From NCBI GenBank assembly GCA_030524715.1, contig JAUNGB010000027.1:3666-53809 (forward strand): a stretch of DNA of 50,144 bases. Reading direction: 5' to 3'. The notes beneath the pieces are model-generated. The model saw only the letters and a program-made list of their open reading frames with translations. It did no database searches and was not told the origin of the DNA. This stretch comes from Eubacteriales bacterium. Lineage in GTDB: Bacteria > Bacillota > Clostridia > Lachnospirales > Lachnospiraceae. Below are positions 21,448 through 40,452 of this stretch, piece after piece (within the stretch, counting starts at the first letter, position 1; each line of letters opens with the position of its first letter). Made by a program: the position numbers and the translations under genes.

Positions 21448-22752
21448 TTATTTATGAGGACATTTAGGATAGGAAGTGGTATATTCTAAAACTCTGTTTT
21501 TTATATAGCTACATTTTGAACATATTTGAGCCTTGTATTTTTTTATAGAACAGCCGCCATTGTTTTTGACATTATGTTCGTATAAATATTTCGTTTGAAA
21601 AGAATGAATACAGGATACTTTTTTTATTGAGGAATCAACAATAGGCAATGCAATATAAGTATTGTCTCCCAGCTTTAAAACAATATTGGAAACCGAAAAA
21701 TCGACATTTTCTTCTTCAACATAGTATTGAGAATCAGAAACGCATTTGGGAGAAAAAAACTCTATGGTTTCATTATCGCCCATATATTCTTCGGGATTCC
21801 AGTTGGTATTTTTTAAAGGGGCATATGCCCATGTAGTAAAAGCACTTATAAAAACTGTAATAACAGATAATAGTATAGATACGATCTTTTTAGGTGATGT
21901 TGATTTTTCCCTTTTCATAATATACATAATCCTCCGTTTCATATTAAATTTAGCTGCAGAAAAGCCGTTTCTCCATACTACAGGCAAAGGTGTATGATCT
22001 GAGGAAATTTCCACTAGGAGACGGGCATATTCTTTCCTTTTATTTATATCTAAATCTCCTATTGCATAAATGTCGCATAAATATTCGCATAATGTGTTAT
22101 ACATTAATAATAAAATATAGGAGAATGGATTATAAAAATGTAAACAAATAATTACGAGGCAAAATAGTTTCATCCAGGTATCATGATTTTTTATATGACA
22201 ATATTCATGTTTGTATAAGACCTCTTTATAATCTGAATATAAAAGGGCTTTGGGCAGGACAATGTAAGTTTTGAAAAAACCTACAGAATAAGGGCTATGC
22301 AAATTATCCAGTACTACAATATGAATTTGGCTTTCTTTTGCTTTTAGTGTGGTGCAATGTGAAATAGTATTAATTAATTTCATATATGATCTTATTTGTA
22401 TAGATGCAAAAATAATAACGCATAAAAACCATATAATTGCCACGGAAACAACCTTCCAGGAAAGCCATATGTATTGGTTCCTTATATCCAAAATTAAATA
22501 TTCAGAAGGATATAGCCGTATGGTTTCGCTTAAAGGGGCTTTTTCTTCATACCAAAATTTAAAAAAATAGTAAACAGAATTTGGCAAAATATAATATAAA
22601 AGCTGTATAGGTATAAGGTAAAAAAATATACTGAATTTTAAAAGCCGCATTCCAAAGCGTATCAAAAAATTTTCCTTTTGCATCAACCATAAAAAAATGC
22701 AGAGAACTAAAGGAATCGTTCCAGCTATTGTCATAGTAAATGGTAATATCAT
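21448..22752 (-). CDS. M56 family (BlaR1-type) membrane metallopeptidase, sensor
   Basis: Membrane zinc protease of 434 aa that pairs with the BlaI-type repressor gene 3 nt upstream. N-terminal membrane segments are followed by the cytoplasmic peptidase with zinc motif HEYCH (residues 182-186) and downstream acidic CEYLCDIYAI. A membrane segment near residues 290-312 leads to the outside domain. Instead of a penicillin-binding domain, the C-terminus is a small cysteine-rich tail (GGCSIKKYKAQICSKCSYI...YPKCPHK) with C-x2-C spacing. By analogy with BlaR1, sensing outside would lead to cleavage of the repressor. The ligand is unknown. The gene is markedly AT-rich against its neighbours, suggesting transfer. 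Confidence 0.88.
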   Translation of the reverse strand: MILPFTMTIAGTIPLVLCIFLWLMQKENFLIRFGMRLLKFSIFFYLIPIQLLYYILPNSVYYFFKFWYEEKAPLSETIRLYPSEYLILDIRNQYIWLSWKVVSVAIIWFLCVIIFASIQIRSYMKLINTISHCTTLKAKESQIHIVVLDNLHSPYSVGFFKTYIVLPKALLYSDYKEVLYKHEYCHIKNHDTWMKLFCLVIICLHFYNPFSYILLLMYNTLCEYLCDIYAIGDLDINKRKEYARLLVEISSDHTPLPVVWRNGFSAAKFNMKRRIMYIMKREKSTSPKKIVSILLSVITVFISAFTTWAYAPLKNTNWNPEEYMGDNETIEFFSPKCVSDSQYYVEEENVDFSVSNIVLKLGDNTYIALPIVDSSIKKVSCIHSFQTKYLYEHNVKNNGGCSIKKYKAQICSKCSYIKNRVLEYTTSYPKCPHK

Positions 22753-22755
22753 AAC

Positions 22756-23127
22756 TTATAATCTTTCAATAAACTCTAATAACTCATCTTTTTCTTTATC
22801 TGTAAGTTTGTGACATCCGGTAAAAGCATATATAAAATTTTTTATTGATCCGTGATAAGATTCATCAACAATTTTTTTTGCTTGTTGCTGATAATAATCT
22901 TCCTGAGATAGAGCAGGAAAATATTCTGCTCTGGAATGATTTTTATCAACGCAAATAAGTCCCTTCTTAGCAAGACGGGATAAAAAAGTATTAATAGTCT
23001 GTTTTTTCCAATTTTTTTTCTTTACATCATTACAGTAACTCATAATTTCTGAAAATCTGGCTGGAGTATCTCTTGACCACAGATATTCCAGAATAAGCAT
23101 ACATGCGTCACTAAGCTCATTAGGCAT
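22756..23127 (-). CDS. BlaI/MecI/CopY-family transcriptional repressor
   Basis: A 123-aa winged-helix repressor. The opening LSDACMLILEYLWSRDTPARF and the NTFLSRLAKKGLICVDKNHSRAEYFPALS segment match the family DNA-binding domain. The C-terminal half (YQQQAKKIVDESYHGSIKNF) is the dimerisation part and would be cut by the M56 partner. It is in an operon with the M56 gene. Its promoter at 23187-23215 carries a TGTAATACA site immediately after the -10 box, fitting autorepression. Confidence 0.93.
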   Translation of the reverse strand: MPNELSDACMLILEYLWSRDTPARFSEIMSYCNDVKKKNWKKQTINTFLSRLAKKGLICVDKNHSRAEYFPALSQEDYYQQQAKKIVDESYHGSIKNFIYAFTGCHKLTDKEKDELLEFIERL

Positions 23128-30461: not shown

Positions 30462-31559
30462 CTATTGTACTGTTATAATAAATGTATCCCCTATCGGAAC
30501 AGCTCCGTCTGTGGGCTGCTCATTTTCTTCATAAATACGTCCTTCGGCTTCAATATAGGTGTCCGGTTCGCCGCTGCTGCTATATTTTTGAGATGCAGGT
30601 GGTTTCGCATTCTCGGGCTTAAGGACATAGAGCCGCAGGCTGAGGTATTCTGCTTTGGGAGATATCCTACTATATAAGGAATCCATGGTATCCAGGCGAA
30701 AAGTAATTTCCGGATTTCCATAGCTTCCCATTGTATAACGTACCGGATTTCCCAGGTTGTCCTCTCCTATGAGGAAATATTCTTCATCATCCTTCAGGGA
30801 ATCCAGACTGCCGTAAATGGCGCTGTCAAAAATATTGAGTCGGAATCCGGTTAATTTTAAACACCGTTCATCATCAATACGAATCTCTTCATTCAGAGGA
30901 ATTTCAGTAGTATCTGCCTCAAGTTCTTTTGGTGAAGCTGTAAATGTAAAGGGATACTCATCCGTGATTTCCTCTGTATCCGGGTTCATCGTTTGAACCT
31001 TTATTTCTATATTGGCTAAGTCTGTTTTATCAATCGTTGTTTCAAGACAAAAACGGCTGACCATTTCATTTCGGAAGTTTGCGGCTGATGTTTGTTCTGC
31101 AGTGAAATTCCAGGTTCCATTAAGCTGGGTTTCTGTTTGGTTAACCCGGACTTCTGTCAATAAAACCGGCATTGTGGTTTCAGGCTTTTCTGCAGCACAG
31201 GAATATGCCAGCCACAATTCTTTTCCATCCATAGCTGCTTCTTCCAGAGTTATGGTTATGCCGTTTTTGGTGACGCTTTTTCCCACGATATCTGTATAAG
31301 ACATTACATTATCATGTATTCCCAGTATCTTTCCGATCATAGTCGTAAAATGATTCCAGGCGGCCTGTACCTCTTTGTGATAGATTGCTGTCAAACTAAG
31401 CATCAAAACCAAAAACGTGCAGGCGGCAATGATCTTGAGCCTGTTTGTCCTAATTGTCTCAAATGTGGCATGCTGCTCTTCCCACGGACGAGAAGCATGA
31501 TAGATATATTGGTCGTCAATTTCACTGAATAACTCCAAAAACTGAAATCCCTGATTCAT
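30462..31559 (-). CDS. DUF4179-type anti-sigma factor
   Basis: A membrane protein of 365 aa. A short cytoplasmic N-terminus (MNQGFQFLELFSEIDDQYI) leads to one membrane segment (IIAACTFLVLMLSLTAIYH) and a large outside domain. The DUF4179 part is seen around KSVTKNGITITLEEAAMDGKELWLAYS. The start at 31559 follows AAAGGAG; the longer frame from 31580 starts inside the sigma gene's end. It lies directly after an ECF sigma factor gene and probably sequesters it until an envelope signal arrives. Confidence 0.88.
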   Translation of the reverse strand: MNQGFQFLELFSEIDDQYIYHASRPWEEQHATFETIRTNRLKIIAACTFLVLMLSLTAIYHKEVQAAWNHFTTMIGKILGIHDNVMSYTDIVGKSVTKNGITITLEEAAMDGKELWLAYSCAAEKPETTMPVLLTEVRVNQTETQLNGTWNFTAEQTSAANFRNEMVSRFCLETTIDKTDLANIEIKVQTMNPDTEEITDEYPFTFTASPKELEADTTEIPLNEEIRIDDERCLKLTGFRLNIFDSAIYGSLDSLKDDEEYFLIGEDNLGNPVRYTMGSYGNPEITFRLDTMDSLYSRISPKAEYLSLRLYVLKPENAKPPASQKYSSSGEPDTYIEAEGRIYEENEQPTDGAVPIGDTFIITVQ

Positions 31560-31572
31560 GAAGCTCACTCCT

Positions 31573-32121
31573 TTACTCATCTAAAAGGGAAAATAATTTT
31601 TTTCTGCTGCGGAACAAAATGGATTTTATTTTGCTTTCGGAACATTCGTGTCTTTTAGCGATATCTCTGATATTATCCATATACCAGTAACGTCTTATGA
31701 AAATGTCCCTGTCTCTTGCTGACAGCATTGCCAGGAAGTCATTGAGTATCTGTATAATTTCTTTTTTCCTGATGTAATCATCCAAAGTGTAGCTTATGAT
31801 ATTGCCAAGTCCTTCCACCTCCTGGCATATATCAGCGATATGCGTATCCATACGCTTCCCCGCTCCCTTTTTGCGGAAACAGTCAATTGCCAGATTTCTT
31901 GTGATTCTTCCAAGAAATGCGGATAAAATATTCGGTTTTCTGGGCGGTATGGAATTCCAGGCCGCAAGCCATGTATCATTGAGACATTCTTCAGAATCTT
32001 CTTTGTTGAACAGAATATTCCATGCAATTCCGAAGCAGAACTTTGTATATTTTCTTTCTGTTTCCAAAATAGCCTGTTCTTTTCGATTCCAGTACATATC
32101 TATGATTTGATGATCGTCCAT
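31573..32121 (-). CDS. ECF-type RNA polymerase sigma factor
   Basis: A 182-aa extracytoplasmic-function sigma factor. Region 2 includes KFCFGIAWNILFNKEDSEEC and NDTWLAAWNSIPP; region 4 is the helix-turn-helix DIAKRHECSESKIKSILFRSR. AAAGGAGG precedes the ATG. It is co-transcribed with the DUF4179 anti-sigma gene 13 nt downstream. The regulon is not visible here. Confidence 0.94.
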   Translation of the reverse strand: MDDHQIIDMYWNRKEQAILETERKYTKFCFGIAWNILFNKEDSEECLNDTWLAAWNSIPPRKPNILSAFLGRITRNLAIDCFRKKGAGKRMDTHIADICQEVEGLGNIISYTLDDYIRKKEIIQILNDFLAMLSARDRDIFIRRYWYMDNIRDIAKRHECSESKIKSILFRSRKKLFSLLDE

Positions 32122-32221: not shown

Positions 32222-32290
32222 TGAAAAAAATTTGAACGCAGCCGCACAGCGGTCTGCGTTCATGGGTATGAGGTAAAGCAGTCAGCGTTA
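32222..32290 (-). terminator. Terminator of the second BlaI/M56 locus, built from dispersed repeat copy D
   Basis: On the minus strand TGAACGCAG...CTGCGTTCA (32233-32262) forms a long stem followed by AATTTTTTT. The bases before it (32263-32290) match the CCGCTTTGCTTCATGCTCATGAACGCA part of the GCGGACATTCG repeat family at reduced identity. The M56 stop codon at 32288 lies at the edge of this repeat. Confidence 0.75.
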
Positions 32291-34105
32291 TTCTGAATAG
32301 GTATTTCCGTATTCATCCGTCCAGGAGCCGTCGCCGTTATCCGTAAAGCCGGTGCCGTTATCGTCACGGTAGAAATAATCTCCGTTAGTAGTTCGGATGA
32401 CCTCAGAGGTACTGCCGTCGCTGCCGGAAAGGATATGGGAGTCCAGTTCCATACCTTCATAATGATAGCGGTCATCCAGCGTTGCGTAAGATTCACCGTA
32501 TTCGTCCGTCCAGGACGTCCCTCCATTATAGGTGAAATTAGTACCGTAATAATTAGAATAGGTTCCGTTACCATTGTCTTTTAAGGCAGTAATATTTCCG
32601 TTACTGTCAATGACAGTATTGATGTAGCCGGAGCCTCTATTATTAAATCCTCCGGTATAAGGAATCACGGATGGCGCAGGTTCCGGGGATTCCGTTTCAG
32701 TGGTATCCGGAACAGAAGCATCACCGGTCTGTGCGGAGCCGGAGGATATTCCGTTCCAGGAATCCTCATACTCTGATGAGGAAATATCGCTTATGTTTTC
32801 TGACAATGTGTTTTCTGACAATGTGCTTTCCGGTAATGTATTTTCCGGCAATGTGTTTCCCAACGGTGTGTTTTTCGGCTGTGCTTGCAGAGCATTATCC
32901 GCCGGAGAGGATTCCTGTGTGCTGTCATAGGAAACAGGTTTAAAGGAAGCGTCCGCCGGGGCCTGCATACGGGATGCGGCAGGAGAGGCATTTTTATCCG
33001 GTATATAATCTAAAGCTTTTGCGGAAGCCTTTGCAGTTTCAGCAGAAATGTCCGTAAGGACGTCCGGAGAATCTGTGACGGCTGAAAAAACAACAAAGGT
33101 ATTTGCAGCGATTAATAAGGCCGTAAGTATAATTCCCGGAAGGCGGTTTCGTTTCAGATGCTTCAGGTTAAGCATGTAAAGGATTCTGTCCTTGAATACC
33201 ATTGTGCTGTCATTGAGGCTTGCCGAAACATAGGGCACATGGTTTTCAATTGCCGCGGTTCTCAGAAGAAGCTTTCTGTACAGCCTGTGATCCTTTACTG
33301 TGCAGTGGCGGATGACATTTGTATCGCACAGGTTTTCAATGTCATTATCCGCTTCCTTCAGCATGATATGCAGAAACGGATTAAACCAGTAAACCGTGGA
33401 GCAGATCCGCAGGAGCATCTTATACCACAGATCTCTGCGGCGGTAGTGTGAAAGTTCATGGTGGAAAATCAGTTTCAGCTCTTCAGCAGTGTATCCGACT
33501 GCCGGAAGATACAGCTCTGTTTTCAGCAGGCCGGTAAGAAGCGGAGTGGAAATCCCGGCGTTCTGCAGCAGGTTCGGAGGATTCTGGATATCCTTCAGCC
33601 TGTATACGGAGGAATACACTCTTAATGTCACCGGATTATAGACCGGAAGGCTCATGCGCTTCAGATTTTTCATAGAAATATGGTAGGAAACCGTTTCCCA
33701 GATCAATTTTAATACGGCTATGGCAAGCCACAAAATCAGAAAAATACTGAAAATGGATACGGAATCTCCGACCTTATGTACATTCCCGGAAAAATCCGTG
33801 TTTTGCCTTTCTGATGTCAGTTCCGTTCCGGTGTCACGGACATCCGGGCCATTTTGCGGAAGGCTCTGCATAATTGGATTTTCCGAAAGCTTCTGGACTG
33901 TCTCGTTTACCGGTAAATGAAAAACGGACAGCCTGGCAGGCATCCGGACGGGAATGAGAAGACTCAGGGAAAGCATGAGCCAGACAAGATATTTCCACTG
34001 TGCAGTAAATTTACCCTTGAGAAAAACGGACATCAGCTTTACAAGCAGAATGATGACTGCGGCGATGATGTTCAGTTTCAGGATATGAAGCACAAATCCT
34101 TCCAT
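32288..34105 (-). CDS. M56 family membrane metallopeptidase with repeat-containing outside domain
   Basis: A 605-aa membrane sensor protease. Membrane segments are at about 10-28, 38-52 and 118-140. The zinc motif HELSH is at residues 216-220, followed by the WFNPFLHIMLKEADNDIENLCD segment shared with BlaR1. A membrane segment near 320-340 leads to an outside region that holds a Thr/Ser-Glu linker made of 5-residue repeats (LPENT, LPEST, LSENT) and a C-terminal domain with recurring W-T-D-E-Y-G and DGSWTDEYGNTY motifs. The same motif type occurs in the exported protein encoded first in this operon. It should cleave the adjoining BlaI-type repressor when an outside signal is sensed. Confidence 0.9.
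   Translation of the reverse strand: MEGFVLHILKLNIIAAVIILLVKLMSVFLKGKFTAQWKYLVWLMLSLSLLIPVRMPARLSVFHLPVNETVQKLSENPIMQSLPQNGPDVRDTGTELTSERQNTDFSGNVHKVGDSVSIFSIFLILWLAIAVLKLIWETVSYHISMKNLKRMSLPVYNPVTLRVYSSVYRLKDIQNPPNLLQNAGISTPLLTGLLKTELYLPAVGYTAEELKLIFHHELSHYRRRDLWYKMLLRICSTVYWFNPFLHIMLKEADNDIENLCDTNVIRHCTVKDHRLYRKLLLRTAAIENHVPYVSASLNDSTMVFKDRILYMLNLKHLKRNRLPGIILTALLIAANTFVVFSAVTDSPDVLTDISAETAKASAKALDYIPDKNASPAASRMQAPADASFKPVSYDSTQESSPADNALQAQPKNTPLGNTLPENTLPESTLSENTLSENISDISSSEYEDSWNGISSGSAQTGDASVPDTTETESPEPAPSVIPYTGGFNNRGSGYINTVIDSNGNITALKDNGNGTYSNYYGTNFTYNGGTSWTDEYGESYATLDDRYHYEGMELDSHILSGSDGSTSEVIRTTNGDYFYRDDNGTGFTDNGDGSWTDEYGNTYSE
32796..32870. repeat. Five 15-bp tandem repeats inside the M56 gene
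   Basis: Units of 15 bp (plus strand TTTTCTGACAATGTG and variants) at 32796, 32811, 32826, 32841 and 32856 encode the five-residue repeats of the linker. Length changes here would stay in frame. Confidence 0.8.
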
Positions 34106-34108
34106 GGG

Positions 34109-34498
34109 TTAATCCTCCTTATTTTCCAGTTCCTGCAGGAAATCACTGAGTTCCTGAATCTCATCGGAACTTATTTTACGTCCCTGATAGAGAGAAGTCA
34201 CAAACTTTTTCAGGGAATTTCCATATAGTTTTTCTAATACGCTGTGACTTTCATGTGCCTGATATTCTTCCTGTGAAATCAGAGGGGTATAAAGGTTCAT
34301 CTTTCCCTGTTTTTCCACGCGCACAAAATTTTTGGCCTCAAGACGGGTCAGCAGGGACAGGATCGTTGTGGGCGCCAACTGCTTTTTCAGATTGACGATT
34401 TTTTCGATTTCAGATCGGCTCATAGGGGGAGCGCCGTTCCATAATGCCAGCATAATATCAAGTTCTGATTCAGGAAGTCTCTGATATGATTTTTTCAT
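34109..34498 (-). CDS. BlaI/MecI-family transcriptional repressor
   Basis: A 129-aa winged-helix repressor: LPESELDIMLALWNGAPPMS at the start, LAPTTILSLLTRLEAKNFVR as the recognition region, and a C-terminal dimer and cleavage part (HESHSVLEKLYGNSLKKFV). AGAGGTAA lies before the ATG. The M56 gene starts 3 nt later. Candidate operators CTAC-N4-GTAG are upstream of the first gene of the set at 35558-35631. Confidence 0.94.
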   Translation of the reverse strand: MKKSYQRLPESELDIMLALWNGAPPMSRSEIEKIVNLKKQLAPTTILSLLTRLEAKNFVRVEKQGKMNLYTPLISQEEYQAHESHSVLEKLYGNSLKKFVTSLYQGRKISSDEIQELSDFLQELENKED

Positions 34499-34525
34499 AT
34501 AACATTACCTCTGCTTTTTGCGTTG

Positions 34526-34551
34526 CCGGGCATTATTTTTAGCATGCCCGG
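34526..34551. other. Hairpin upstream of blaI-like gene
   Basis: CCGGGCAT and ATGCCCGG form a perfect 8-bp stem. The A run follows on the plus strand, so for minus-strand transcription the T run comes before the stem; it is not a normal terminator for this operon. It may be a structure in the intergenic transcript. Confidence 0.4.
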
Positions 34552-34582
34552 AAAAAAATACAAGTTATCTGTTGGAAGATAT

Positions 34583-34615
34583 GTTACTGTTCACACCAGC
34601 AGTGTAAACAATAAC
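34583..34615. repeat. 14-bp imperfect inverted repeat
   Basis: GTTACTGTTCACAC (34583-34596) and GTGTAAACAATAAC (34602-34615) pair at 12 of 14 positions around a 5-nt centre. A similar GTGAACAATAA string is at about 35670. It lies between the exported-protein gene and the repressor gene and may be a second regulator site. Confidence 0.45.
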
Positions 34616-34635
34616 AAAATATTACTACGGGAGGA

Positions 34636-35517
34636 TTACCATGGAAGGAAGCTCTCACTGTCCGTATCATAGTAATACCAACCGTTTCCTCTGCCGATAG
34701 GAGAGCCGTCGGTTTCTGCCTTCTGGAAAGGAATATAGGAATTTGTTCCCGGATCCCAGGAGTAGAGATCATACGGATCGTTTATATCCGATGTGCTGTC
34801 ATTGTCCTCGTCCGTATGATCAGAGGACGCATCAGCCGCTTCCCGGGCAAAAGTACCGTTCCAATAATAAGCTTCACCGTTTTCATTATAAATAGGGGCT
34901 GTTTCATCTACATTATCCAAATCTCCATAGGAAACGCCGTTTTCATCATACCAGTTGCCTGTGCCGTCAGTTCCGCAGGTAACATGGACACTGTTCATGT
35001 TGATGTCATAGAGGATGATGGAATTAAAGCCCTGGGGAGGAATCTCCGTATCGGATGCGGAGGAATCGGTTTGGGTTCCAGATGAATTGCCGTCGCTGTC
35101 CGTCTGCGCAGAGCTGCCTGGATTGGAGGAAGCTGTCTCCGGATAGTCGATACTGTCGATAATTTCCTTTACTTCGGCAATATCCTCTGCCTTTGCTGCC
35201 AGACCGGCTACCGTATAGATACTGTCTCCGGCGCAGTAGATGGTCTGATAAACCGCCTTATATTCGTCACTGGTCTTTGACAGGGCGGGAAGATCATCAT
35301 AGTCCTTATATTTCATAACAATAACCTTATCTGTGCCGTTTGTAAAGGTGTGAAAGGTATTTTTATCTGAAATTTCTTCCCAGTCTCTGTTAATGGCTTC
35401 CAGAGAAGTAGAAGGTTCATTGATGTTAATGGATGCGGCGTTTCCGGCAACGGGAAATGCGCAGATCAATGCTGCGGACAATGCAAATGCAGGTAAAATT
35501 CTTATTTTGGTATTCAT
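34636..35517 (-). CDS. Exported protein with W-x-D-E-x-G repeats, partner of BlaI/M56 locus
   Basis: A 293-aa secreted protein. The signal peptide (ILPAFALSAALICAFPVAGNA) is cleaved near residue 28. The first domain (to about 130) is unfamiliar and includes DKVIVMKYKDYDDLPALSKT. A Ser/Thr/Asp-rich linker follows, then repeats such as GTGNWYDENGVSYGDLDN, YNENGEAYYWNG and WDPGTNSYIPF. These resemble the outside domain of the M56 protein encoded at the end of the operon. AGGAG precedes the ATG. The promoter carries three BlaI-type operators. A role as signal, substrate or sensor modulator is inferred, not shown. Confidence 0.78.
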   Translation of the reverse strand: MNTKIRILPAFALSAALICAFPVAGNAASININEPSTSLEAINRDWEEISDKNTFHTFTNGTDKVIVMKYKDYDDLPALSKTSDEYKAVYQTIYCAGDSIYTVAGLAAKAEDIAEVKEIIDSIDYPETASSNPGSSAQTDSDGNSSGTQTDSSASDTEIPPQGFNSIILYDINMNSVHVTCGTDGTGNWYDENGVSYGDLDNVDETAPIYNENGEAYYWNGTFAREAADASSDHTDEDNDSTSDINDPYDLYSWDPGTNSYIPFQKAETDGSPIGRGNGWYYYDTDSESFLPW

Positions 35518-35557
35518 GGAAAATTCTCCTTTCGACTATTGTAAATATTAATTACTT

Positions 35558-35631
35558 CTACTTTTGTAGTAGATGATTACATTCTACAACTGTAGAAGAG
35601 GATTGTCAATAGCTATTTACTACTTTTGTAG
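35558..35631 (-). promoter_or_regulatory. Promoter with three CTAC-N4-GTAG operators
   Basis: On the minus strand TTGACA (35604-35609) is 17 bp from TAGAAT (35581-35586). Three 12-bp palindromes CTAC-N4-GTAG lie at 35558-35569, 35584-35595 (in the promoter spacer, within the perfect 16-mer TTCTACAACTGTAGAA) and 35620-35631. This is the shape of BlaI/MecI/CopY operators and points to repression by the protein at 34109-34498. Confidence 0.85.
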
Positions 35632-35822: not shown

Positions 35823-36426
35823 GTGGAATATTTTTTTTCCAATCAATATGCCAATGAGGAATACTTATTCAGAGATCTTTTTATCTGGAAAGAGGAAAAA
35901 TACCGTAAGCTTCAGGGAAGCTACCCTGTGATTTTTGTGAGCTTTGCGGGTATTAAGGGAGATACCTATGAAACCGTAAGAGAGGGTATTATTCAGGTTA
36001 TCATAGATTTATATGCAAAGTACAGTTTTTTGCTTGAGGGAGATTTCTTAAACAGGCAGGAAAAAGCGTACTTTGATTATATAAATGCCGGTATGTCAGA
36101 TGCAGTAGCTTCCATGGCACTGCATCGGCTGGCGATGTGTCTGAAGCGCTATTATGACAAAAAAACAATTATATTGCTTGATGAGTATGATACGCCTTTG
36201 CAGGAAGCTTATCTATATGGATATTGGGATAAACTGGCGTCATTTATCAGAAGTATGTTCAATTTTACGTTTAAAACAAACCCTTATCTGGAGAGAGGGC
36301 TTATGACAGGGATTACCAGAGTAAGTAAAGAATCTTACAATCCGGGGCCTGATCGTTGATCTTGCGGATCAATACCGGATAACATCTAACAGGGAAAGCG
36401 GATTGGGGCGCTATGATGTAGTGATG
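35823..36426 (+). pseudogene. Remnant of an AAA-ATPase-like/PD-(D/E)XK nuclease gene
   Basis: The frame 35823-36359 encodes the middle of an AAA-ATPase-like protein: EYFFSNQYANEEYLFRDL at the point that normally follows the Walker A loop, YPVIFVSFAGIKGDT, Walker B IILLDEYDTPLQEAY and LMTGITRVSKES. The Walker A region is missing. At about 36335 the coding frame shifts, and the +1 frame continues as GLIVDLADQYRITSNRESG-LGRYDVVME, the end of the PD-(D/E)XK nuclease domain. The roughly 200 residues between are deleted. The remnant stops at the 44-bp hairpin repeat at 36427. Both ends thus meet dispersed repeats. An intact but diverged relative is at 38713-40380. Confidence 0.85.
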
Positions 36427-38712: not shown

Positions 38713-40380
38713 TCAGTATTCTGCTATTCTGCAAGTGTGCTTACCGGTCTTTGTACTGTAATTCAAACCAATTAACAGCAATTTTCCTTCATAACCAAAC
38801 TTCTTCATGATTTGCGGATACTGTTTATCCGTGATCTGCGTTATTGCTTGGTCAGCGCTTTTATTCCATTTCAATTCAACCAGCAAAGCCGGTTTCCTGG
38901 AGGTCGGTCTGGGCAGAAACAAGATATCGCAGTATTCTCTCCCGGATGCCAGCTCCTCAAATTTCAGATAGTGATCTATAGATGTAAGGTACGCCATAAT
39001 GACCACATGCCGCAGCGCCTGTTCGTCATTATAATTCTGCGGCGCTGTCTCAGCAAAATGTGCCGCTTCTATCATTTTGGCAACAGCCATTTCATCTTTA
39101 GCCAGTGTAGCTTTTAACAGATCATCCGATATTTTTACTGCCTTTGCCAGCTCTGGTCTCCCGCCTTCTTTTACTGCACGGATAAACTCGCCTCTGACTT
39201 CTTCATTGGGAATAAATACTTCTTTTCTGTCAGAATCATATGCCAGATACCCCAGGTGTACTAACAAAGTGAAAATATCATCCCTGCTCCTTATGGATAC
39301 CATATCATTCTGAAATGTCTCCGGATCAATCCGGCAGCGCTTTCCCCCAAGCATATTAACTAAAGCATTTTTTAACCCGTCATAATTGAAATCAATATAT
39401 TCCCTAAGTGATTCATAAGTTTCTGTTTTTGTCCAGTAACTGCCGAATTTCCTTTTTGTCATAAGCTCCACAATAGAGTTCGGGCAGTAAACATGCTGAA
39501 CGATATTGCCCTGTTTTATCTTTATACGTCCTGTCTTTGAATTACTTTGATTTTTCTCTGCCGCAGCAAACTGGCCAACTATGTCAAACTGATAACCATC
39601 ATACCATTTTTGCGTTTCTGTAAAATCTAAATCGTATTCTTCACACAGAAGTTTTACCTCATCCTCTGTAAATCCGATAAACGGCGCCAATGGTCCTGGT
39701 TCAAGCATGGTAAACTCTCTGAAATCAGTCAGTGCGGACTGTGTGCCATACTTCTTAATCGGCAGGATACCGGTCATATATGCTCCCGCTATAATCTGCG
39801 AAGTTTCGGCAGTTTTAAATAAACTCCGCAAAAATTGAATGTACGACTCCTGTAACTCTTTCTCATTTTTGGCTTCTCGAAACAGAGCATCCCATTCATC
39901 AATAATAATCAAAAATTTATGTCCGGTTTCCTCCCTGACATCCATAAGCGCAGATGCCAGCTTCTTCGTATGATCGCTAATACATCCCGGATATTCCTTT
40001 TTTAGTTCTTTAATAACTGCGGCCTGTAAATCATATACCGTGTTCCGAATATCTTCTGCCCTTGAAATAAATGAAGTAACATCTACAAAAATCACGTCAT
40101 GCTTATTAAGGTGCTCATCATATCTGCCCTCATCACCAATACTGGCAATCTTAAGCTTTTCAAAAAGTGACCTGGCGTCTGCTCCCTTTGAATAGTAAGC
40201 CGTTAGCATTTTGGCAGCAAAGGACTTACCAAAACGACGCGGACGAGTTGATATTATCAATTTTCTGGATGTACCAAGTACACCATTCGTATAAGCAATT
40301 AAGCCTGATTTATCCACATATTGCCCATCAGCCAGCACCTCTGCAAATCCATCTGCAGGCGGATTTACATAAAATCCCAT
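38713..40380 (-). CDS. AAA-ATPase-like protein with C-terminal PD-(D/E)XK nuclease domain
   Basis: A 555-aa cytoplasmic protein. The start at 40380 (MGFYVNPPADGF) is chosen because GGGGTG lies upstream and the promoter -10 box sits only about 45 nt before it. The P-loop reads STRPRRFGKSFAAK (K52), the Walker B is FLIIIDEWDALF, then GAYMTGILPIKKYGT. The nuclease-like C-terminus has YCDILFLPRP and PALLVELKWNKSADQAI. This two-domain family (AAA-ATPase-like plus PDDEXK_9) occurs in many copies in Clostridia and Bacteroidia; roles in defence or mobile DNA are suspected but not settled. A broken relative is at 35823-36426. Confidence 0.9.
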   Translation of the reverse strand: MGFYVNPPADGFAEVLADGQYVDKSGLIAYTNGVLGTSRKLIISTRPRRFGKSFAAKMLTAYYSKGADARSLFEKLKIASIGDEGRYDEHLNKHDVIFVDVTSFISRAEDIRNTVYDLQAAVIKELKKEYPGCISDHTKKLASALMDVREETGHKFLIIIDEWDALFREAKNEKELQESYIQFLRSLFKTAETSQIIAGAYMTGILPIKKYGTQSALTDFREFTMLEPGPLAPFIGFTEDEVKLLCEEYDLDFTETQKWYDGYQFDIVGQFAAAEKNQSNSKTGRIKIKQGNIVQHVYCPNSIVELMTKRKFGSYWTKTETYESLREYIDFNYDGLKNALVNMLGGKRCRIDPETFQNDMVSIRSRDDIFTLLVHLGYLAYDSDRKEVFIPNEEVRGEFIRAVKEGGRPELAKAVKISDDLLKATLAKDEMAVAKMIEAAHFAETAPQNYNDEQALRHVVIMAYLTSIDHYLKFEELASGREYCDILFLPRPTSRKPALLVELKWNKSADQAITQITDKQYPQIMKKFGYEGKLLLIGLNYSTKTGKHTCRIAEY

Positions 40381-40423
40381 TCTGCCCCACACCCCTTTCA
40401 GAAGTAATTCCTTTATCATCTGT

Positions 40424-40452
40424 ATTATACAAAACAGCCCTGTGAAATTCAA
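40424..40452 (-). promoter_or_regulatory. Promoter of the AAA-ATPase-like gene
   Basis: On the minus strand TTGAAT (40447-40452) is exactly 17 bp from TATAAT (40424-40429). It shows that upstream ATGs in the open frame (40452 and 40419) are not starts. Confidence 0.8.

Follow-up and report, generated by a model that had tools for sequence, protein, structure and literature searches.

A BlaI/M56 operon lineage whose sensor ectodomain resembles the exported protein encoded upstream

What does a BlaI/M56 regulatory pair respond to when its membrane protease carries no domain for binding beta-lactams? Genes of the two families are easily misread as beta-lactam resistance determinants. A safety study on Blautia producta DSM 2950, for instance, counts blaI and blaR1 among the resistance genes and reports that the strain is not resistant to beta-lactams, e.g. 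ampicillin (PMC8146736). Here, we analysed such a pair in a stretch of 50,144 nucleotides from an Eubacteriales bacterium of the Lachnospiraceae (GCA_030524715.1, JAUNGB010000027.1, positions 3,666 to 53,809), hereafter called the window, which is part of contig 132 of a 5.28-Mb genome that we counted among 64 Blautia genomes. A first-pass annotation made from the letters alone had read three consecutive genes on the minus strand as an exported protein (EXP), a BlaI repressor and an M56 protease, and both order and coordinates agree with the open reading frame (ORF) list and with matches to PF03965 and PF05569. The protease-repressor pair as such is known; as judged from sequence comparison, what appears new is a non-beta-lactam ectodomain that is matched to, and in places evolves with, a co-regulated exported protein. 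The sources accessible to our literature searches, in which most subscription journals are missing, contained no M56/BlaI system recognised as being of such kind. The genes and their parts are the following (positions within the window):

34636..35517, minus strand: EXP, exported protein, 293 aa, with a signal-peptide-like N-terminus (by eye), N-domain, linker, repeat and LPW C-terminus
35128..35424, minus strand: EXP N-domain, residues 32-130; family in 29/64 Blautia genomes, with a PsbP/Mog1-like fold as a lead
34927..34956, minus strand: EXP motif NWYDENGVSY, residues 188-197
34639..34800, minus strand: EXP C-terminal LPW module, 54 aa, shared with stand-alone exported proteins and with EXP and M56 of the operon in genome G027
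34499..34635, minus strand: EXP-BlaI intergenic region, 137 bp, with strong predicted hairpins
34109..34498, minus strand: BlaI-type repressor, 129 aa, with a PF03965 match and an alignment with Staphylococcus aureus BlaI (1sd4)
32288..34105, minus strand: M56 (BlaR1-like) membrane metalloprotease, 605 aa, with PF05569 at residues 8-310 and an alignment with BlaR1 (8exp)
33446..33460, minus strand: HELSH zinc protease motif, M56 residues 216-220, with ENLCD following at residue 257
32291..32644, minus strand: M56 extracellular C-terminal module, 118 aa, two predicted all-beta units, homologous to the EXP C-termini of relatives (alignment A1)
32486..32515, minus strand: M56 motif SWTDEYGESY, residues 531-540
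32297..32326, minus strand: M56 motif SWTDEYGNTY, residues 594-603

The relation between sensor and exported protein is best seen in relatives of the window operon. From the neighbourhoods of relatives and a search with the module, we gathered 18 M56 genes of the lineage, namely 15 with a module of the WTDENG type, distributed over 14 of the 64 Blautia genomes (the window's included), and those of G027, G520 and G523, the last two belonging to one genus other than Blautia. At 15 of the 18 (window included), one contig carries EXP and, downstream of it, BlaI-M56; EXP is separated from M56 by contig ends at one and lacking at two, a co-occurrence on which the first-pass annotation had staked its reading. 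By blastp, the M56 ectodomain matches the EXP C-terminus of its own operon in 14 of the 15 one-contig operons, that is in all 14 other than the window's, and the window M56 matches EXP reading frames of relatives at up to 78 bits. The proposed kinship between the sensor ectodomain and the co-regulated exported protein is thereby borne out for the lineage, with the window as the exception. Which module is shared varies between lineages, and three types occur as matched pairs within operons. In WTDENG pairs, the last 118 residues of M56 and EXP can be aligned throughout (alignment A1, which leaves out the window EXP and the G027 pair) and are 76% identical in G022; between the M56 modules of the main Blautia clade and the EXP module of G022, identity is 43-48%. 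An LPW module ends both proteins of G027, where M56 additionally bears an SH3_3 domain, and SH3_3 together with related repeats is found in both EXP and M56 of G520 and G523. For the M56 module of the window, AlphaFold2 predicts two all-beta units with a mean predicted local distance difference test score (pLDDT) of 87.3 (77-80 in the other four models). A common low-complexity motif lacking a fold, named beforehand as the finding that would undo the annotation, was rejected on the grounds of this confident model (pLDDT 87).

Co-evolution of the two modules is most apparent in G520 and G523. Within the operon, EXP and M56 modules are 65% (G520) and 70% (G523) identical; compared between the two genomes and for the same gene, the M56 ectodomains are 44% and the EXP C-termini 47% identical, the EXP N-domains 69% and the M56 cores 54%. 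In the module tree, G520 and G523 modules pair by operon, not by gene (support 100/98 and 95/94), and trees constrained to keep both EXP modules, or both M56 modules, together were rejected (approximately unbiased test, p = 4.1e-5 and 4.6e-50), while the M56 cores of both genomes group together (91/83). This tree also contained the 12 most similar of 52 stand-alone EXP proteins (45 with similarity); the program warned of a long branch, SA_L198_3, meeting the group, and the groupings were named after the identities were known. Very recent gene conversion was rejected as the source of the within-operon likeness: at the nucleotide level the two pairs are only 70 and 73% identical, and any gene conversion must therefore be old. 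In G022/G058b, the M56 module is placed among EXP modules with moderate support (89/96), as if it had been acquired from its partner. The near-identical G004, G016 and G051 were left out of the module tree and of the M56 core tree, and G027 out of the latter.

BlaI matches PF03965 (Penicillinase_R; E 1.1e-27) over model positions 3-115 of 115, i.e. over the full length of winged helix and dimerisation domain, and its residues 8-126 align with residues 8-125 of 1sd4. M56 matches PF05569 (Peptidase_M56) at E 2.9e-45 (155 bits, cut-off 31), and its alignment with S. aureus BlaR1 is confined to the core, residues 9-344. All 18 M56 rows compared keep HExxH as well as the ENLCD that follows. As annotated at the outset, the penicillin-binding domain is absent from the window M56, which gave no PF00905 match; the control was positive, namely L001, another of the eight M56 matches in the source genome, which combines M56 with Transpeptidase PF00905 (E 1.3e-37) and is BlaR1-like in the usual sense. 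The M56 proteins of the five relatives scanned gave no match to a domain of the PF00905 type either. Since PF00905 is missing here and borne by a separate M56 of the same genome, the window M56 is not a BlaR1-type beta-lactam sensor, and we rejected that reading. Its score against NF000326 (blaR1_generic) is 118 bits, below the curated equivalog cut-off of 400. No beta-lactamase or low-affinity penicillin-binding protein was found in the operon, the third gene of which is EXP with neither a Pfam match up to E 1 nor an NCBIfam match up to E 0.1; the flanking ORFs were read by eye only. According to a study of BlaR1, this M56-type protease cleaves BlaI directly and is autocleaved at Ser-Phe, the cleavage site in BlaI being Asn-Phe; class D beta-lactamases are relatives of its sensor domain (PMC9834060). 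In pairwise alignments, the residues at both corresponding sites of the window proteins are Ser-Leu, consistent with a protease and a repressor that are adapted to each other.

Upstream of EXP lie the elements by which the operon is probably controlled:

35558..35569, no strand: operator-like palindrome CTACTTTTGTAG
35584..35595, no strand: operator-like palindrome CTACAACTGTAG, which overlaps both -10 and spacer of the promoter-like sequence
35620..35631, no strand: operator-like palindrome CTACTTTTGTAG, immediately upstream of the -35
35581..35609, minus strand: promoter-like TTGACA-17-TAGAAT, sigma-70-like, 11/12 match, among the operator-like palindromes

The annotation had claimed three exact CTAC-N4-GTAG sites at this place. 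They are indeed there (35558, 35584, 35620) and are the only ones in the 50-kb window, in which 0.20 would be expected; three were reached in 0 of 100 shuffles. Sites of this form stand at the EXP start of 16/16 loci in which that region is covered, counting those no more than about 175 bp ahead of the called start or slightly within it, as some starts were probably called too early. Conversely, the DNA examined around two M56 genes lacking EXP (L076, L084) contains none. On this evidence, we regard the sites as candidate BlaI operators over the EXP promoter. The 4-kb region holds 8 promoter-like sites, with 7.9 expected by chance, and TTGACA-17-TAGAAT is the best of them. Of the initial claim of one promoter for all three genes, a promoter-like match among the operator-like sites before EXP stands; a single shared promoter is unproven because the EXP-BlaI gap of the window contains predicted hairpins (-40.7 kcal/mol, computed without shuffle control) and because 11 of 15 operons (window counted) have a further operator just before BlaI, although the window's operon has none. 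BlaI and M56 are separated by 3 bp. The gaps of several relatives (e.g. L074:6835-6966) show a long hairpin (gap about -40 kcal/mol), a promoter-like stretch (by eye) and then an operator, a layout which suggests that EXP and BlaI-M56 are under separate control in these relatives.

What, then, would such a sensor read? We give an even chance to a BlaR1-like circuit for a ligand, probably located in the envelope or at the gut surface, in which the sensor ectodomain and the secreted EXP share a ligand-binding module. Matched modules imply a matched ligand as the simplest reading, as in BlaR1/beta-lactamase and RsgI/cellulosome. SH3 domains and aromatic repeats may point to a wall or polysaccharide ligand. 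Docking of the ligand on the M56 ectodomain would cause the cytoplasmic M56 domain to cleave BlaI, as BlaR1 does, and cleavage would lead to expression of EXP, BlaI and M56. The secreted EXP would then capture the same ligand via its own copy of the module, and by its uptake or covering the signal would be lowered again.

Several observations weigh against this reading, beginning with the window pair itself. The shared motif W-x-D-E-x-G-x-x-Y, from which the first-pass annotation had started, is present in both proteins, at M56 residues 532 and 595 and EXP residue 189, and exactly these three copies occur in the window ORFs of at least 60 aa (counted after dropping overlapping shorter ORFs). 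The similarity beyond the motif is weak. A blastp comparison of the window M56 ectodomain with its own EXP gave nothing at E 0.01; with the M56-type module profile, the window EXP reaches 12.7 bits against a maximum of 5.9 in 500 shuffles, a weak, one-way signal, as the EXP-type repeat profile scores the window M56 at 1.0 bit in the reverse search, a value reached by 32 of 500 shuffles. A profile-profile comparison (hhalign) of the two repeat types gave 87% probability (P 4e-6, 48 columns), and a weak relation between them is thus suggested. The window EXP combines an NWYDENG repeat with the LPW module, its M56 carries the WTDENG-type module, and the pair is hence mismatched, the only one of 15 for which no matching was detected; the motif was therefore a true lead on thin in-window evidence. 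EXP residues 133-293 match stand-alone exported proteins at up to 63%, and the EXP C-terminus seems to have been swapped for that of a stand-alone exported-protein family, with M56 keeping its WTDENG-type module; the LPW-module tree gives no order of module change for the G027 and window pairs. The main Blautia clade also counts against the proposed circuit: its within-operon pairs are 36-45% identical (9 operons; 50% in G053, where the compared span is shorter), identities for one and the same gene in G041 and G011 are 66-71%, and to judge by these values the pairs stem from an old duplication with co-evolution not continuing. A single origin of each gene's module appears in 8% of the bootstrap trees in the G022/G058b module tree. 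EXP lies 1.3 kb from BlaI in G523, EXP and M56 are at the ends of two different contigs in G053, and EXP is missing at the M56 genes of G037 and of G058 (contig 41). The M56 module has no clear match among solved folds. Lastly, 85 of 91 other M56 frames have no neighbour that resembles their ectodomain.

As an observation apart, exported proteins bearing the LPW module or NWYDENG lie near agr-type two-component-like genes (by eye) at five loci (L093, L094, L095, L100, L101).

The 91 frames come from two control sets, both drawn from top-scoring M56 matches or loci obtained earlier and hence not a random sample: 52 loci with flanks of about 1.5 kb (51 testable, the L057 ectodomain having 11 residues), with 3 matches at E 0.01, and 40 loci with spans of 6-9 kb and long reading frames chosen, with 3 matches at E 0.001. 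In four of the six matches, sensor and neighbour each contain PF00905 and form a penicillin-binding pair (L302/L309, L327, L334, L340), the pairs of L327, L334 and L340 being 27-30% identical over 81-91 residues and confirmed by Pfam. In the fifth (L066/L307, from G070, same family but a different genus), the M56 ectodomain and the exported protein next to it both carry SBP_bac_1 (PF01547); solute-binding protein, M56 and BlaI stand in a row (L307:3062-7774), the ectodomain is 63% identical to its neighbour over 298 aa, and this M56 probably senses the substrate of the neighbouring solute-binding protein. The sixth (L063/L308, 4833-7615, from G084, same order and other family) has BlaI, M56 and an exported protein, TGNW-type repeats in the last two, and two TTACACTTGTAA palindromes at the BlaI start. 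Six of 91 in a non-random sample, with unrelated domains, mean that likeness between sensor and neighbour is uncommon among M56 loci yet recurrent. M56 genes are widespread, with a match at E 1e-20 or better in 184 of 299 sampled genomes of the bacterial family. That M56/BlaI proteases are in general 'mirror sensors', with an ectodomain copied from the secreted protein under their control, kept matched to it and reading the ligand that this effector leaves uncovered, is an extension which we consider doubtful, and the boldest that the data permit.

At E 1e-5, the EXP N-domain is found in 29/64 Blautia genomes and in 14 of 19 genomes of a second genus; a sample of 397 genomes from across the family contains it in four at E 1e-6, among them two Blautia. 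Neither BlaI nor M56 was found near stand-alone matches of this domain (0/57 regions, with spans often shortened by contig ends; the EXP frame was recovered in 52), and CTAC-N4-GTAG occurs in 1 of the 57 (L245), about 2 kb downstream of the EXP frame. Outside the lineage, the N-domain thus appears by sequence as a stand-alone exported protein. The EXP model is of low confidence (mean pLDDT 41.9, N-domain blocks about 52-83), and RseB/MucB, PsbP, LpqN and Mog1 score about alike as folds of the N-domain, which may be PsbP/Mog1-like or RseB-like.

The annotation had left open whether the sensor detects the exported protein or both bind the same wall ligand. The common ligand fits better and detection of EXP less well, because elsewhere a solute-binding ectodomain stands beside a solute-binding protein and penicillin-binding ectodomains beside beta-lactamase- or PBP-like genes, which points to a shared small ligand. 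A sensor binding EXP itself by repeat-repeat pairing, and so measuring EXP outside the cell as feedback or as a population signal, would equally predict the within-operon matching and the co-evolution in two operons, and it agrees with gene order and shared operators; given those parallels and the mismatched window pair, we think it unlikely. Rather less probable still is that EXP acts as a negative co-regulator whose N-domain docks on the M56 ectodomain and holds it off. RseB is such an inhibitory partner of RseA, and a fold like that of RseB/MucB or PsbP is possible for EXP; the low confidence of its model, the about equal scores of PsbP, LpqN and Mog1 and the EXP relatives that have no M56/BlaI nearby speak against this role.

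The likeness could also be devoid of a functional link, both genes having taken their ends from a common pool of wall-binding repeats (SH3, W-D-G-Y) of surface proteins. Related repeats and LPW modules do occur in stand-alone exported proteins, and the mismatch in the window would be no surprise; independent drawing, however, would yield neither pairing by operon nor the matching of three module types, and such a neighbour adjoins only 6 of the 91 other M56 frames, four of them in penicillin-binding pairs. We hold this to be very improbable. At the far end stands a degenerate beta-lactam system whose sensor has lost the penicillin-binding domain. Such an origin would account for the homology of BlaI and M56 to the bla/mec regulators; against it, no match to the domain was obtained in the M56 of the window and of five relatives, EXP is without family match, distinct ectodomains recur, and the genome has a separate BlaR1-type protein, so that we see hardly any chance for it.

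The surroundings of the operon hold further genes of these and other types. Just downstream of M56, positions 31573-32121 encode an extracytoplasmic function (ECF)-type sigma factor and positions 30462-31580 a DUF4179 protein (both on the minus strand), which are likely a sigma/anti-sigma pair. Divergent from the EXP promoter, the ORF at 35823-36359 (plus strand) resembles by eye a fragment of the AAA-ATPase-like protein type found at 38713-40452 (minus strand). A second BlaI-M56 pair lies at 21448-23127 (minus strand). The C-terminus of its M56 is a domain rich in Cys and His (C-x-H ... C ... C-x2-C). The domain, possibly a metal-binding ectodomain, is common to 5 of the 8 M56 proteins of the source genome; for the second pair, blastp found no ectodomain-like neighbour within about 1.5 kb.

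Should ectodomains tend to copy the exported product of their operon, this would offer a way to infer what orphan sensors respond to. If the general extension were true, BlaR1/beta-lactamase would be just one instance beside those with repeat modules, SH3 modules or solute-binding proteins, and an orphan M56 ectodomain would reveal the target of its operon. Moreover, a sensor and a secreted protein that co-evolve and exchange whole modules in step would be a test bed for the study of changes in sensing specificity.

How do these operons compare with known systems? With BlaR1-BlaI and MecR1-MecI they share the M56 membrane protease, the BlaI repressor and the palindromic operators, as well as the kinship between sensor domain and effector; they differ in having no penicillin-binding domain and, as ectodomain, a repeat/SH3 module common to EXP, the type of which varies by lineage. 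At the L307 and L308 loci, protease and repressor come from the same families as here and the ectodomain again matches a neighbouring exported protein; the ectodomain families, however, are unrelated, gene order is different and each locus is a single example. RseB/MucB and PsbP/LpqN-like proteins are comparable through the possible fold of the EXP N-domain (a low-confidence model) and differ in their membrane partner. SigI-RsgI of Clostridium thermocellum is alike in logic only: it consists of an anti-sigma and a sigma factor with plant polysaccharide ligands in place of an M56 core and BlaI, and the outside domain of its membrane regulator likewise resembles modules of secreted enzymes. In work on this bacterium, the GH10 module of RsgI6 and Xyn10D share 57% identity, and the promoters on which SigI6 acts include those of GH10 xylanases (PMC4711584).

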